Positions 1-5,531 of a DNA stretch of 64,000 bases are shown piece after piece; position 1 is the first letter of the stretch, and each line of letters begins with the position of its first letter. Both the position numbers and the translations under genes were made by a program. Source of the stretch: Hyphomicrobiales bacterium (lineage in GTDB: Bacteria > Pseudomonadota > Alphaproteobacteria > Rhizobiales > MH13); NCBI GenBank assembly GCA_017642935.1, contig JAEPOK010000001.1, forward strand, positions 1,595,192-1,659,191, written 5' to 3'. The notes under the pieces are model-generated. The model saw only the letters and a program-made list of their open reading frames with translations, searched no databases and was not told the DNA's origin.

Positions 1-1068
1 CAGCTCGCGGTTGACGTTTGCCATGACGGCCAGCGGCGCAGGTTTGAATGTCAATGTGACGCCCTGATCCTCGGCCACAGGTTCATACAGCTCCATGACG
101 TCGGTCAGGACCTGACCAAGATCGACCTGGCCCAGCGTGTGACGCCGCCCACCGGCCTCGACTCGTGCGATGGTGAGCAGTGCCTGGAACGTCGCCATAA
201 GCCGTTCGGCCTCGCTCAGCGCATTTTCCAGCGCCGCACGATCGGTGGCGTTGTCGGGCGGTTGACGCAGGGCATCTTCCATCTGGTTGCGCATGCGGGT
301 CAGCGGTGTGCGCAGGTCGTGGGCGATGTTATCGGAGACTTCTTTCAGCCCATTCATCAGGCGTTCCAGACGAGCGAGCATCACGTTGAGCTGTTCGGCC
401 AAACGATCAAACTCATCGCCGGTGCCCGTGACCGCGATGCGTTCCGATAGATGGCCATCCATGATCCGCGCGGTGGATTGGGAGATGCCGTCCAGGCGCT
501 TCAGCACACGCTTGTTGACGTAGAACCAGCCGAGCGCAGCCAGCACGGCGAGCAGCACAAGCGAGACGATGGCCGCGCGGCCAATGGCTTGGCGGATCAC
601 GTCGGACTGGCCGATATCAAGGCCGATCAGAGCGCGAAACCCATCCGGTAGTTCAATGATGCGCACGATGGCGCGGCTGTCGCGCTCCTGCCCATCGGGG
701 CCGATCTGTTTGTAAGCAAACCGCGCCAGGCCCGTCTGATCCCAAACGCCATCGGGCAGGCTGCCAACCGAATTCACGACCTCGAGCCCATCAGGCGTCA
801 GCAACGCATAGAGCCGGTTGCCGGGGCGCTGGGCGCTATCCTGCATGGCAGCAAACAAGCCATTGATCCCGGCGCGCTGGTAATGCTGACCCAGACGGCG
901 GGCGTCGCCCGTCAGGCGCTGGTCGACGTCGCGGATCAGCACCGAGGATGTCTCGAACACCAGATAGCCAATCAATCCGCCGGCGAAGAGGCCGAAGACA
1001 ACCAGATAGCCGGCAGCCAGCTTGAAGGCGGTGGTGCGGAAAGGCCTAAGCCGTGTCGCGGAGGACAT
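1..1068 (-). CDS. Sensor histidine kinase, 3' end outside the window
   Basis: The reading frame is open from an ATG at 1068 to the window edge, giving 356 codons of a longer protein. Residues about 13-36 form a first membrane segment, a periplasmic sensor loop follows, and a second membrane segment lies near 163-184. A HAMP region comes next. The phosphoacceptor box reads VSDNIAHDLRTPLTRMRNQ with His near residue 250, so it is a HisKA-type kinase. The ATPase domain is mostly beyond the window. Its start overlaps the end of the response regulator gene by 23 bases, so the two are translationally linked and should form one pathway. The signal sensed is unknown. The degP gene just upstream makes envelope stress a reasonable guess, which is inference only. 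Confidence 0.88.
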   Translation of the reverse strand, partial: MSSATRLRPFRTTAFKLAAGYLVVFGLFAGGLIGYLVFETSSVLIRDVDQRLTGDARRLGQHYQRAGINGLFAAMQDSAQRPGNRLYALLTPDGLEVVNSVGSLPDGVWDQTGLARFAYKQIGPDGQERDSRAIVRIIELPDGFRALIGLDIGQSDVIRQAIGRAAIVSLVLLAVLAALGWFYVNKRVLKRLDGISQSTARIMDGHLSERIAVTGTGDEFDRLAEQLNVMLARLERLMNGLKEVSDNIAHDLRTPLTRMRNQMEDALRQPPDNATDRAALENALSEAERLMATFQALLTIARVEAGGRRHTLGQVDLGQVLTDVMELYEPVAEDQGVTLTFKPAPLAVMANVNREL

Positions 1069-1723
1069 AGCCCGCCCCTCTCACGGTCTGGATCAGCGGT
1101 TTATCCTGGCCCTTATCGATCTTTGAGCGCAGGCGGGATATGTGCACGTCGATGACGTTGGTCTGCGGGTCGAAATGATAATCCCAGACCTTTTCCAGAA
1201 GCATGGTGCGGGTTACGACCTGACCGGCGTTTTTCATCAAGAACTCAAGCAGACGAAACTCGCGCGGCTGAAGCGGGATGTCCTCGCCACCGCGTTTGAC
1301 GGTGTGCGACAGACGGTCCAGCTCCAGATCGCCGACCTGATAGGTGGTCTGGGCCTCGCCGGGCGTGGTCCGGCGTGCGAGAACTTCGGCGCGCGCCAAA
1401 AGCTCGGAAAAAGCATAGGGTTTGGGCAGATAATCATCGCCACCGGCGCGCAGACCGGCCACGCGGTCGTCCACCTCGCCGAGGGCGGAAAGGATGAGCG
1501 CTGGCGTTTGGCGGCCCTGTTCGCGCAAGGCGGCAATGATCGATAAGCCGTCGCGCTTGGGCAGCATGCGGTCCACGACCATCACATCGAAATCATCGGA
1601 CAGCGCATACTCAAGGCCAGTGTCGCCGTCAGCGGCGTAGCTCGGTGCGTGGCCCGCTTCGCGAAAGCCTTTGACGATGAAGGCGGCGGCCTCGACATCG
1701 TCTTCGATAATGAGAACCTTCAT
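1046..1723 (-). CDS. OmpR/PhoB-family response regulator
   Basis: This 225-residue protein has a receiver domain in residues 1-115: acidic pair Glu7/Asp8-Asp9, phosphoacceptor Asp51 in VVDRMLPKRDG, and conserved Lys101 in LPKPYAF. A winged-helix DNA-binding domain follows from about 128 to 222 and ends in the RGAGYVLRD motif typical of OmpR-type wings. It is the partner of the histidine kinase that overlaps its 3' end. It lies downstream of degP on the same strand, 200 bases away, in an order I recall from many rhizobia after the cytochrome c maturation operon. Targets cannot be read from the sequence. Confidence 0.9.
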   Translation of the reverse strand: MKVLIIEDDVEAAAFIVKGFREAGHAPSYAADGDTGLEYALSDDFDVMVVDRMLPKRDGLSIIAALREQGRQTPALILSALGEVDDRVAGLRAGGDDYLPKPYAFSELLARAEVLARRTTPGEAQTTYQVGDLELDRLSHTVKRGGEDIPLQPREFRLLEFLMKNAGQVVTRTMLLEKVWDYHFDPQTNVIDVHISRLRSKIDKGQDKPLIQTVRGAGYVLRDTA

Positions 1724-1923: not shown

Positions 1924-3525
1924 TTAGCCGCGGTCGGTTGGCAGGGCCACGAAGCGCGAGGCTCCGTTCTCGCCTTCCACACGCACCAGGGCGGACGCCT
2001 GGCCGTTGCGGGCGGCTTCGCGTAGTCCGGAGGTGAGATCGCGCATGCTGCTCACCGGCTGGCCGGCAACCTCAACGATGACGTCGCCTTCGCGCAGATC
2101 GCGCTCGGCAGCCACACCGTTGGGATCCAGGTCGGTGACGGCGAGGCCATCGACATCAAGCCCAAGCGAGGAGGCAGGCGCCACCGTCATGCCGAGCTGA
2201 TCGACAATGCTTGGCTGCGAGCGATCAAGGTCCGGCTGGCGGAACTGGCTGGCCAATTCACGTTCGGACGGCAGCGTGCCAAGGCGCACATCGACGGTTT
2301 GCTCGCGGCCATCGCGCCAAACCAGGATTTCCACCGTTTCATTCGGATCGAACGCACCGATGATGCGGGCAAGCTCCGTCGGGCCCTCTACGGTCACGTC
2401 GTTGACCGACAGGATGGTGTCGCCGGACCGCAAGCCTGCATCTTCAGCTGGGGATCCCGACGCGGCCGATACGATGATCGCACCTTCGGTGGACTCGCGG
2501 CCAATGCCTTCGGCGAGTTCCGGTGTGAGCGATTGGATGTTCACACCCAGCCAACCACGGGCCACGGCGCCGTTTTCGATGAGATCACCGATCACATCGG
2601 CGGTCACCGTCGACGGCACAGCAAAGGCAATGCCGACATTGCCGCCCGATGGTGAGAAGATGGCGGTGTTCACCCCGACCACTTCGCCGCGCATGTTGAA
2701 GGTTGGACCGCCGGAGTTACCCCGGTTGATGGCCGCATCGATCTGCAGGAACTCATCATACGGGCCAGGCTGGATATCGCGGCCTTGCTGCGAGACGATG
2801 CCCGACGTAACCGACCCACCAAGGCCAAACGGGTTACCGATGGCGAGCACGATTTCGCCGATGCGCGGCTGCTCTTCGGCCAGGCGCACATAGGTGAAGT
2901 CATTGCCCTCGACTTTCAGCAGCGCCAGATCGGTGCGGCTGTCGGTGCCGAGCACTTCCGCGTCGAGAATGTCGCCATTGTCCATGACGATCTGGACGGT
3001 GCCCGCCCCCTCGATCACATGGTTGTTGGTGACCAGATAGCCGTCCTCAGAAATGAAGAAGCCGGAGCCCTGACCGCCGCCACGGCGTGGGTTGCGCGGA
3101 CCTTCTCCACCACCTGGACCGCGGCGGAAAAACTCCTCAGCTTCCGGCCCGAAGCGACGGAAAAAACGGTCGAACGGCGTGCCATCCGGCAGACGGTCAA
3201 TGTCCCGGTTGGAGGTTTCCACCGGCTGCGGGGCTTCCACGCGTACAGCCACCACCGCGGGCATGACGGCTTCGACCAGATCTTCAAAGCCGGTCGGGGC
3301 AACGAAAGTGTCAGGCACGACAGCTTCAGCGGCGCGGGCCTGTTGCACGGTGCTCACGACGGCCGTGCCAGCGAGCGGGACCAAAAGGCCAAGGCCGAGA
3401 ATGGTGGAGAGTGCCAGCGTGGTTTTGCGGTTCAGCAACCGGGCGCGGCGCGGTGCTGCGCTTGTCGGCTTCGCCTCGCCTTCGGTCTGGAAAACGCCGT
3501 TCGAGTGATGATTTGGATCGGTCAT
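1924..3525 (-). CDS. degP: Do-family periplasmic serine protease (DegP/HtrA)
   Basis: The 533-residue protein degrades or refolds damaged proteins in the periplasm. A positively charged N-terminus and a hydrophobic segment at about 35-65 look like a signal sequence ending near QARAAE. The trypsin-like domain carries the full triad: His169 (TNNHV), Asp199 (SRTDLALL) and Ser271 (RGNSGGP). Two PDZ domains follow at about 310-410 and 430-525. The Gly- and Arg-rich segment near 137-152 is the flexible LQ-type loop region. Length and layout fit DegP/MucD-type proteases. The gene follows the ccm region and precedes a two-component pair on the same strand. An unusual branched inverted repeat sits directly before its ribosome binding site. 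Confidence 0.95.
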   Translation of the reverse strand: MTDPNHHSNGVFQTEGEAKPTSAAPRRARLLNRKTTLALSTILGLGLLVPLAGTAVVSTVQQARAAEAVVPDTFVAPTGFEDLVEAVMPAVVAVRVEAPQPVETSNRDIDRLPDGTPFDRFFRRFGPEAEEFFRRGPGGGEGPRNPRRGGGQGSGFFISEDGYLVTNNHVIEGAGTVQIVMDNGDILDAEVLGTDSRTDLALLKVEGNDFTYVRLAEEQPRIGEIVLAIGNPFGLGGSVTSGIVSQQGRDIQPGPYDEFLQIDAAINRGNSGGPTFNMRGEVVGVNTAIFSPSGGNVGIAFAVPSTVTADVIGDLIENGAVARGWLGVNIQSLTPELAEGIGRESTEGAIIVSAASGSPAEDAGLRSGDTILSVNDVTVEGPTELARIIGAFDPNETVEILVWRDGREQTVDVRLGTLPSERELASQFRQPDLDRSQPSIVDQLGMTVAPASSLGLDVDGLAVTDLDPNGVAAERDLREGDVIVEVAGQPVSSMRDLTSGLREAARNGQASALVRVEGENGASRFVALPTDRG

Positions 3526-3540
3526 GTCGCCAATGTTCCT

Positions 3541-3611
3541 TTTTGCCAGTCATTGTCGCACCGTCTGACCGGTGCGTGGGCCGATATGGCCCCCAGCGAT
3601 GACTGGCAAAA
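3541..3611 (-). promoter_or_regulatory. Cloverleaf-like inverted repeat in the degP leader
   Basis: Bases 3541-3555 and 3597-3611 form a 15-base outer stem (14 matches; arm TTTTGCCAGTCA). The 41 bases between them hold two further hairpins: GCACCG(3558-3563)/CGGTGC(3570-3575) and GGGCC(3578-3582)/GGCCC(3588-3592). On the minus strand the outer stem ends directly against AGGAAC, the apparent degP ribosome binding site, about 16 bases before the ATG at 3525. It may be a structured leader RNA, an operator, or a member of a dispersed palindromic repeat family. The fold is seen directly; a regulatory role is inference. Confidence 0.6.
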
Positions 3612-3682
3612 TGGTGTCGCGCGCCTTACCGCACCATGTCGGTCGGGTTAAACCTTTGTAATGTTCGAAAAAGTCTTGCTGA

Positions 3683-4936
3683 TCAGGCCAACTCGTTCGC
3701 GCATTTGGTGACGACCGCTGCGCCTTTTGTCAGCGTTTTGTGCACCGGACATTTATCAGCGATTTCAATGAGTTTGGCTTTGACATCAGGCGCAACATCA
3801 CCGGCCAGATGGATGGTGCGCTCGAAACGGTCGATCTTGCCGGCTTTGCCTTCAATCTCTTCGCCGCAATCGGCACAGTCTTTGGCGTGCACCTTGTCAT
3901 GCTCCACGGTGACCGCGACCAACGGCAGCTCAAGGTTCTTGAAGTCGGCGTACATGCGCAGCGTCATCGTCGTGCAAGCGCCCAGCGCAGCGCCCAACAT
4001 GTCGTAGGGCGCCGGCCCTGTGTCCATGCCGCCATAGCTTTCCGGCTCATCGGCCAAGATACCGTGGACACCCATGCGTACCGAGGCCTGAAACTTGCCG
4101 GCACCGGTTTCGGCAACGGAGATTTTGGCTGTCGCAACCTCTCCAGAAAACACCGATTCCTGCGGCTCGGCGGCTGGAATGTAACGCTCTGACCAGGAGG
4201 CTATCATTTGCGCGACATAGGCGGCGTCGGTGTGGCTGGTGAGCAGATGGTCGGCGCCGTCGAGCGTAACAAAGCTCTTGGGATGCTTGGCGGCATTGTA
4301 GATGGTGGCCGCGTTCTCAATGCCGACGGTCTGATCGACGGGTGAGTGGAACACCATCAAAGCCTTTTTCATAGCGCCGATGCGCTGGGAGATGTTCTGG
4401 CTCGCGACATCCTCCAGAAACTGTTTCTCGATGGTGAAGGTACGACCGGCCAGTTTCACTTCGGCCTTGCCGTCACGCTCAATGGCCTCAATATCGGCCT
4501 CGAAATTGTGCACCACATGAGCGGTGTCGGCCGGGGCGCCGATGGTGGCGACGGCCTTGACCTCGGGGATGTCCGGCGCCGCCGACAGCACAGCCGCGCC
4601 GCCCAATGAATGGCCGATCAGGATCGATGGCGCCTGGTCGTTCTGGCGCATCCATTCCACGGCGCTGAGCAGATCACCGACATTGGAAGAGAAGTTGGTG
4701 GAGGCGAAATCGCCATCGGAGTGCCCAAGACCGGTGAAGTCGAACCGCAGGGTCGCAATGCCGTGCGCGGCAAGCTCTGAAGCAATGCGCTTGGCCGCGA
4801 AGACGTCCTTGGAGCAGGTGAAGCAATGGGCGAAGAGCGCGCACGCGCGCGGCTTGCCGGCGGGCTTGTCGAAACGGGCGGCAAGTTCTGCGCCCGATGC
4901 ACCGGTGAAGGTGATGCGGCTGGTGGTGGCTGGCAT
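3683..4936 (-). CDS. Alpha/beta hydrolase-OsmC fusion protein
   Basis: The protein joins two enzymes in 417 residues. Residues 1 to about 255 are an alpha/beta hydrolase with nucleophile Ser110 in GHSLGG and a histidine in GADHLL. The C-terminal part, about 280-417, is an OsmC-type peroxiredoxin with its two cysteines in LGACTTM and CPVHKTL. OsmC proteins reduce organic hydroperoxides, and the hydrolase may release such substrates from esters, which is inference. I chose the ATG at 4936 because AGGACG precedes it and because the frame further upstream does not look like a signal peptide or hydrolase. It sits between ccmH and degP on the same strand, 125 bases after ccmH. Confidence 0.88.
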   Translation of the reverse strand: MPATTSRITFTGASGAELAARFDKPAGKPRACALFAHCFTCSKDVFAAKRIASELAAHGIATLRFDFTGLGHSDGDFASTNFSSNVGDLLSAVEWMRQNDQAPSILIGHSLGGAAVLSAAPDIPEVKAVATIGAPADTAHVVHNFEADIEAIERDGKAEVKLAGRTFTIEKQFLEDVASQNISQRIGAMKKALMVFHSPVDQTVGIENAATIYNAAKHPKSFVTLDGADHLLTSHTDAAYVAQMIASWSERYIPAAEPQESVFSGEVATAKISVAETGAGKFQASVRMGVHGILADEPESYGGMDTGPAPYDMLGAALGACTTMTLRMYADFKNLELPLVAVTVEHDKVHAKDCADCGEEIEGKAGKIDRFERTIHLAGDVAPDVKAKLIEIADKCPVHKTLTKGAAVVTKCANELA

Positions 4937-5060
4937 AATCAAACGTCCTGGAAAAGCGGCCCGAACAGGCAACAAGAAGATGGCGCACGCTCGCATGCAG
5001 CCTTGCTCACGCGCAAGCCACGGGTGGGTGAACACTCTGTGTGGGGAAAATGGGGGTGCG

Positions 5061-5531
5061 TTAGTCCTGGTCGGACTTCAGTAGCGCGTCCAGGCGCGCT
5101 TTTTCCTCCGCGCTCAAGGCCGCGGGCGCGGCGGCAACAGTTGTTTTGCGGCCTCGCGTGCGCAGAAAAATCACCGTGCCAGCAATCAAGAGCACCAAGG
5201 CCGGGCCGAACCAGAGCAGAACCGTGGCCTGGTTCACCGGCGGGCGCAGCAGAACGAAGTCGCCGTAGCGGGCGACCAGAAAATCGAGCACCTCTCGGTC
5301 CGAGTCACCGGCTACCAGGCGTTCACGCACAAGGATCCGCAAGTCGCGCGCCAATTGGGCGTTGCTCGCATCGATGCTTTCGTTTTGGCAAACCAGACAG
5401 CGGATTTCCGCCGACAGGTCACGCGCCCGCGCTTCAAGCACAGGGTCGTCTAGCACCTCGTCGGGCTGCACGGCCTGCACAGGCAGCGCCAGTATCAGGC
5501 TCATCAGGGCGGCGAGCGCCAGCCGGATCAT
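5061..5531 (-). CDS. ccmH: Cytochrome c maturation protein CcmH
   Basis: The 156-residue protein is a periplasmic, membrane-anchored thiol reductase of apocytochrome c haem ligation. It has a signal sequence (residues 1-20), the redox motif RCLVCQN with Cys45 and Cys48, and a C-terminal membrane segment at about 103-122. These features match the CcmH/CycL family. The start codon overlaps the end of ccmF by 4 bases (ATGA), so it is the last gene of a ccmI-ccmE-ccmF-ccmH unit. Rhizobial literature calls the set cycHJKL. Confidence 0.95.
   Translation of the reverse strand: MIRLALAALMSLILALPVQAVQPDEVLDDPVLEARARDLSAEIRCLVCQNESIDASNAQLARDLRILVRERLVAGDSDREVLDFLVARYGDFVLLRPPVNQATVLLWFGPALVLLIAGTVIFLRTRGRKTTVAAAPAALSAEEKARLDALLKSDQD

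Follow-up and report, generated by a model that had tools for sequence, protein, structure and literature searches.

The degP gene in the 64,000-nucleotide stretch of Hyphomicrobiales DNA analysed here (the window, to which all coordinates refer) is preceded by a large branched inverted repeat that runs into its ribosome-binding site. This raises the question of which RNA, if any, the repeat folds in, and what such folding would mean for the translation of an envelope-stress protease.

A single-copy inverted repeat before degP

On the minus strand, the outer repeat consists of two arms of 16 nt each, 15 of which are paired (94%), with 45 nt between them; the 13 inner pairs of the stem (TTTTGCCAGTCAT/ATGACTGGCAAAA) contain no mismatch. 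The first-pass annotation had described a 15-base stem with one mismatch, which is the same stem counted slightly differently, and its two enclosed hairpins are both present in the minus-strand fold, which reaches -44.8 kcal/mol as compared with -28.7 +/- 3.4 kcal/mol for 200 dinucleotide shuffles (z -4.8, 0/200 as good). It was also right that the repeat continues into AGGAAC ahead of the degP start, as the 3' arm extends into the Shine-Dalgarno (SD) sequence AAAGGA. This SD and its gap of 11 nt to the start codon are common to all four same-genus leaders. The proposal that the repeat might be a dispersed, REP-like palindromic element was ruled out, since blastn and a pattern search found it once in the 3.74 Mb genome. 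Rfam gave 0 matches up to E 10 within 3400-3800. The pattern of hairpin 1 (CATCGCTGGGGGCC..), allowing 2 mismatches, has matches in 10 of 61 genomes, same-genus degP leaders among them.

The repeat lies in a narrow space between co-directional genes (Table 1). The upstream gene, which encodes an alpha/beta hydrolase-OsmC fusion, has its stop codon about 20 nt before the TTAC box of the promoter module described below, and within 3450-3900 we found neither a terminator-like site nor a consensus sigma70 promoter. In further genomes of our set, degP likewise follows a homologue of the fusion gene. The genome from which the window is taken encodes a second DegP-like protein (G000:C1:531478-532857), which is 40% identical.

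Table 1. Features of the degP locus, listed in the direction of minus-strand transcription.
Feature	Position	Strand	Remarks
ccmH	5061-5531	-	upstream on the same strand
alpha/beta hydrolase + OsmC fusion gene	3683-5035	-	co-directional upstream gene; presumed source of read-through
TTAC, first module box	3658-3661	-	matrix of 97 regions: T0 98%, T1 96%, A2 92%, C3 92%
TTTAAC, second module box	3647-3652	-	T11 98%, A13 98%
GTAA(GG), third module box	3626-3629	-	32 nt after TTAC
5' arm of outer stem	3599-3614	-	overlaps predicted -10 and start region
predicted -10, CATTTT (module 48-53)	3608-3613	-	A49 in 89% of 97 regions
predicted transcription start (module A61)	~3600	-	C60 57%, A61 54% (97 regions); 12 nt after A49
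inner hairpin 1, GGGCC/GGCCC	3578-3592	-	within predicted own degP mRNA
inner hairpin 2, CGCACCG/CGGTGCG	3557-3576	-	within predicted own degP mRNA
3' arm of outer stem	3538-3553	-	extends into SD
degP SD, AAAGGA	3537-3542	-	11 nt gap to ATG at 3525
degP/htrA-type periplasmic protease	1924-3525	-	Trypsin_2 + PDZ domains
OmpR-type response regulator	1046-1723	-	Pfam Response_reg + Trans_reg_C; presumed activator of the module

A promoter module shared by degP genes of the order

A degP match was obtained in 147 genomes. We used 103 upstream regions, namely the best match of each of 100 genomes of the order, taken in listing order down to G036, together with G000, G003 and G004; G001, the G002 match, which is cut by a contig end, and the weaker remainder were left out, and the G002 leader was obtained separately from this set. 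A first fixed pattern was found in 55 of the 103 regions, with TTAC and GTAA always exactly 32 nt apart where 27-41 nt were permitted, and a refined position weight matrix identified the module in 97 of the 103. The module has the form TTACnAA..TTTAAT..GTAAGG..CYATaTT..CA with fixed spacing; its full consensus is AACaTTACnAAnnTTTAATC....CGACAG.....GTAAGGCG........CYAtaTT......CA. Module positions are counted from the first base of TTAC as position 0, so that position i corresponds to window 3661-i. Outside the order, the matrix recovered the module in 5 of 29 degP loci, which is above the shuffled background; the strict pattern, searched across the class, matched in 4 of 289 genomes and was too strict to use. 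At up to 3 mismatches the module boxes have no second match in the window's genome.

In the last module block, the base that varies least is A49 (89% of the 97 regions), which is A in 25/25 strong-stem, 27/27 weak-stem and 8/8 divergent-neighbor leaders. Its constancy and the CA that follows point to the CYATaTT block as the probable -10 element, with transcription predicted to start at module 61. The degP promoter is probably activator-dependent, because no consensus sigma70 promoter was found, and the upper boxes of the module may be binding sites of the neighboring response regulator, whose gene adjoins degP in 91 of the 97 module-bearing loci (two of the six exceptions being due to contig ends). 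We considered FeuP as the identity of this regulator and rejected it on the Sinorhizobium meliloti gene numbers, in which, according to an excerpt of PMC4941405, degP1 is SMc02365, SMc02366 is ragA and feuP is SMc00458. The FeuP motif, TTCA-N7-TTCA in an excerpt of PMC3616915, is therefore not claimed here. The excerpt of PMC4941405 describes S. meliloti degP1 (SMc02365) as acid-induced, along with the response regulator gene ragA (SMc02366), and this joint induction is consistent with a shared operon.

With the -10 element and start placed as predicted, the 5' arm is promoter DNA, of which only two bases would be transcribed. Since the arm coincides with the predicted -10/start region, the complete fold is probably no leader structure of degP's own mRNA, which would contain no more of it than the two inner hairpins. 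The first-pass suggestion of a folded degP leader that hides the binding site is thus borne out as far as the hidden SD and its complementarity in related leaders are concerned, and it probably fails as a description of the gene's own mRNA.

In same-genus leaders, the predicted first transcribed bases (ATCGCTGGGGGCC; 3578-3600, minus strand) are near-identical, while the arms around them are less conserved. An invariant 5-bp complementarity, TCGCT/GGCGA, also connects the 5' end of the predicted mRNA with the bases that immediately precede the degP ATG, in columns 20-24/100-104 of the same-genus alignment, where there is no variation.

Proposed fold-back insulation of degP

Since the left arm lies on the predicted promoter and the right arm on the SD, RNA reading through from upstream should fold shut, and RNA from the gene's own promoter should remain open. 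The explanation that we favor, with somewhat better than even confidence, is fold-back insulation. The operon of degP and the response regulator gene would be transcribed from a regulated promoter of its own, which lies close behind the end of the co-directional upstream gene. Read-through RNA would carry the -10/start sequence as an anti-SD arm and form the 16-bp outer stem around the two hairpins, with the degP SD paired and translation poor. RNA starting near 3600 would be missing this arm, keep the two inner hairpins and leave the SD open. With the read-through RNA closed and the own RNA open, DegP synthesis would largely be confined to times at which the gene's own promoter is active.

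Complementarity between promoter and Shine-Dalgarno sequence across genomes

We removed 20 near-identical sequences from the 97 module-bearing leaders and used the remaining 77 non-redundant leaders to set the promoter window of each genome against the SD of the same genome and against those of the others. Short ungapped windows were used instead of RNAduplex on long windows, which gave a blurred profile. Module window 48-60 is complementary to the genome's own SD far beyond the cross-genome expectation (z 7.1, 0/2000 permutations), as are the flanking windows 42-54 (z 4.6) and 54-66 (z 5.2). Beyond the predicted start the excess is gone (60-72, z -0.7; 66-78, z -1.9), and windows upstream of 42 reach z values of 0.2 to 2.9. 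When the 3' side was scanned, the peak fell at -18..-6 of the start codon, which is the SD (z 8.3), and RNAduplex is in agreement, with z -8.0 for 40-61 and z -0.7 for 61-82.

The signal persists with one genome per family (n=35; 48-60 z 3.95, 0/5000). When the SD of the next gene was substituted as a control, window 48-60 gave z 0.6 and window 42-54 gave z 2.7, which indicates that part of the 42-54 signal is compositional. A direct-repeat control gave z -0.8 and a reversed but not complemented control z 1.8. Not every genome has the stem: measured against their own cross distributions, 13 of the 77 leaders rank in the top 5% and 25 in the top 10% (KS p 8e-7), and some genomes, for example those of loci L032 and L115, are opposite in direction.

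Replication made use of 56 new genomes of the order, 49 with the module by the fixed matrix and 7 without; 13 leaders similar to the first set and 3 similar to each other were removed, leaving 33. Among these, window 48-60 gave z 2.75 (20/4000) and 42-54 z 2.6; 54-66 was not significant (z 0.6), and 60-72 gave z -0.8. The effect is weaker in the second set and has the same location. We conclude from these computations that complementarity between promoter and SD is maintained, with a sharp boundary at the predicted start.

Among close relatives this maintenance takes another form than the compensatory changes by which the first-pass annotation had proposed to judge the fold. RNAalifold on a MAFFT alignment of the four same-genus leaders returned no outer stem, and both-side changes were seen at 2 of 16 pairs, in inner hairpin 2. 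The absence of the outer stem from this result means that we are dealing with maintained complementarity and not with column covariation; among the same-genus species the arms have drifted apart in sequence and pair again in a different register, and in all four of them the presence of the arm raises the computed energy of opening the SD.

Energy of opening the Shine-Dalgarno sequence

Opening the SD is computed to cost 5.4-5.7 kcal/mol on average when the 5' end of the RNA lies at module positions -40 to 40 (n=77). This cost drops as the 5' end moves downstream, to 5.1 at position 44, 4.3 at 52, 3.7 at 56 and 3.5 kcal/mol at 61, and then stays flat at 3.6-3.7 kcal/mol to position 72. The difference between the read-through and own RNA is positive in 57 of the 77 leaders, exceeding 1 kcal in 39 and falling below -1 in 4. 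In chimeras, a genome's own 40-60 segment costs 1.91 kcal/mol and a foreign one 0.46 (z 10.4, 0/2000); the corresponding values in the replication set are 1.24 and 0.51 (z 4.0, 0/4000, n=33).

For the window itself, opening the SD is computed to cost 5.4 kcal/mol in RNA beginning at TTAC vs 1.4 kcal/mol in the own transcript, and for the other three same-genus species 5.7 vs 1.1, 4.8 vs 2.2 and 10.8 vs 1.8 kcal/mol. The 40-60 segment by itself makes little difference in G004 (2.70 vs 2.16 kcal/mol), and the value of 4.83 requires a longer RNA. The temperature control raised by the first-pass annotation finds no support in the model: between 20 and 48 C the SD does not melt in RNA with or without the arm, and the mean probability that it is unpaired stays at 0.34-0.38 with the arm and at 0.67-0.69 without it.

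Orientation of the upstream gene

If the arm serves a purpose in read-through RNA alone, loci whose upstream gene is transcribed away from degP are expected to have lost it. The complementarity is strong in the 45 loci with a co-directional neighbor (z 8.5) and absent in the 8 with a divergent one (z 0.4); the 24 of 77 loci without an orientation class give z 4.2. The co-directional neighbors come from two large homologous families, of ccmH type or OsmC-fusion type. The divergent ones are six homologous trypsin-like/peptidoglycan-binding ORFs (one of them Pfam-checked), one DUF2336 and one malonyl-CoA decarboxylase. The comparison of stem ranks between the two classes gives p 0.006 (one-sided), with the stem ranks known before the 8 divergent loci were named, though the orientation question had been noted earlier; the version based on SD cost (energy) gives p 0.08.

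Two cruder classifications had been seen before the final classes, and neither showed a clear difference: a strand call from ORFs and GC3 (p 0.51), and an earlier homology call, antisense shadows included, with a mean cost of 2.16 in 51 co-directional and 1.62 in 14 minus-strand loci. One divergent locus, L048, has a good stem, and the replication set contains only 1 divergent locus. We regard the orientation dependence as supportive but not decisive. A divergent gene for a trypsin-like protease with a peptidoglycan-binding domain stands before degP in L041, L093, L105, L114, L117 and L131, which belong to different families.

At slightly less than even confidence, we extend the proposal to the whole order. 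Translation of degP would there depend on where its transcript originates; the -10/start sequence would double as an anti-SD in read-through RNA, promoter element and ribosome-binding site would co-evolve, and a divergent upstream gene would release them from this constraint. Between tightly packed genes, a translational insulator would thus take the place of a terminator. If this is true, a promoter -10 region has a second function at the RNA level, and there is an explanation for how degP can follow unrelated genes at a distance of tens of bases and yet not leak. Complementarity of a -10/start region to the gene's own SD above the cross-genome expectation would then be a signature with which to scan for other insulated genes.

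Alternative explanations

Transcription might start further upstream, near module 44 (window 3617), with TTTAAT (9-14) and GTAAGG (32-37) serving as -35 and -10, in which case all degP mRNAs would carry the anti-SD arm and the cloverleaf would be a real leader, opened either by the ribosome or by a protein, an sRNA or a ligand. The 17 nt spacing between these boxes is canonical and the whole-leader fold is very stable, but GTAAGG is without the final T of a -10, and A49 of CYATaTT (47-53) is constant even where nothing pairs, with CA at 60-61 twelve nt on. Moreover, pairing stops at 61, the opening curve is flat past that position, and such a start would not predict a dependence on upstream gene orientation; we consider it unlikely. 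That the degP leader contains a thermometer or another kind of stress switch seems highly improbable, even though the SD is paired in the long form of the RNA and S. meliloti DegP, according to the excerpt of PMC4941405, is acid-induced and reported to be needed at high temperature: the model shows no melting of either RNA from 20 to 48 C, an Rfam thermometer match is absent, and the arm is probably untranscribed.

The repeat might instead act as DNA, the inverted copy of the -10 at the SD serving as a promoter for antisense RNA, as a site for a protein or as a cruciform, and the 3' arm does repeat the -10-like sequence on the other strand. However, the complementarity also covers 54-60, outside the -10, the complementary sequence differs between relatives, the complementarity as RNA raises the energy of SD opening, and the signal depends on neighbor orientation, all of which makes a role at the DNA level very unlikely. 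Finally, the stem in the window could be a coincidence combined with a weak compositional or phylogenetic trend elsewhere. A clear stem in only about one-third of the genomes, the weaker replication and the z of 1.8 in the reversed but not complemented control would all fit this. Set against them are the controls with neighboring windows, the next gene's SD, direct repeats and one genome per family, and the chimera test in both genome sets, and we judge coincidence to be distinctly unlikely. Fold-back insulation remains the reading that we prefer for degP.

Comparison with known systems

The transposases of IS10 and IS50 are under fold-back control, in which RNA initiated outside the element is poorly translated since its ribosome-binding site is paired. 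There, a mobile element silences itself, whereas degP is a housekeeping stress gene. The phage T4 genes soc and e (lysozyme) have a closed early RNA and an open late RNA; these are phage genes, for which we have seen no promoter-SD comparison across genomes. RNA thermometers of the ROSE and fourU types have their SD paired in the leader, as the degP read-through RNA would, but degP differs from them in having no Rfam match, no predicted melting and an arm that probably lies outside its own mRNA. In a literature search of open-licence PMC papers we found no report of fold-back insulation for degP or any cellular gene.

The likeness is to phage T4 I-TevI. According to an excerpt of PMC2988022, RNA that comes from early and middle promoters further upstream sequesters the ribosome-binding site of this gene, and a late promoter is so positioned that its RNA is unable to adopt the structure and is translated; the same excerpt lists this type of hairpin with an internal late promoter for I-TevII, I-TevIII, segB and mobE of phage Aeh1. 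In I-TevI the SD is hidden in read-through RNA, and RNA from the gene's own promoter does not have enough sequence to fold; in the proposed degP arrangement both would hold as well. I-TevI is a case of phage timing genes with mapped promoters, whereas degP belongs to a cellular envelope-stress operon with a predicted start and predicted read-through, and, unlike I-TevI, it would have a promoter of the activator type and an arrangement found order-wide. The comparison suggests that the logic of I-TevI may operate in a chromosomal stress operon; if so, a mechanism demonstrated in phage genes serves to insulate an operon of the cellular stress response.
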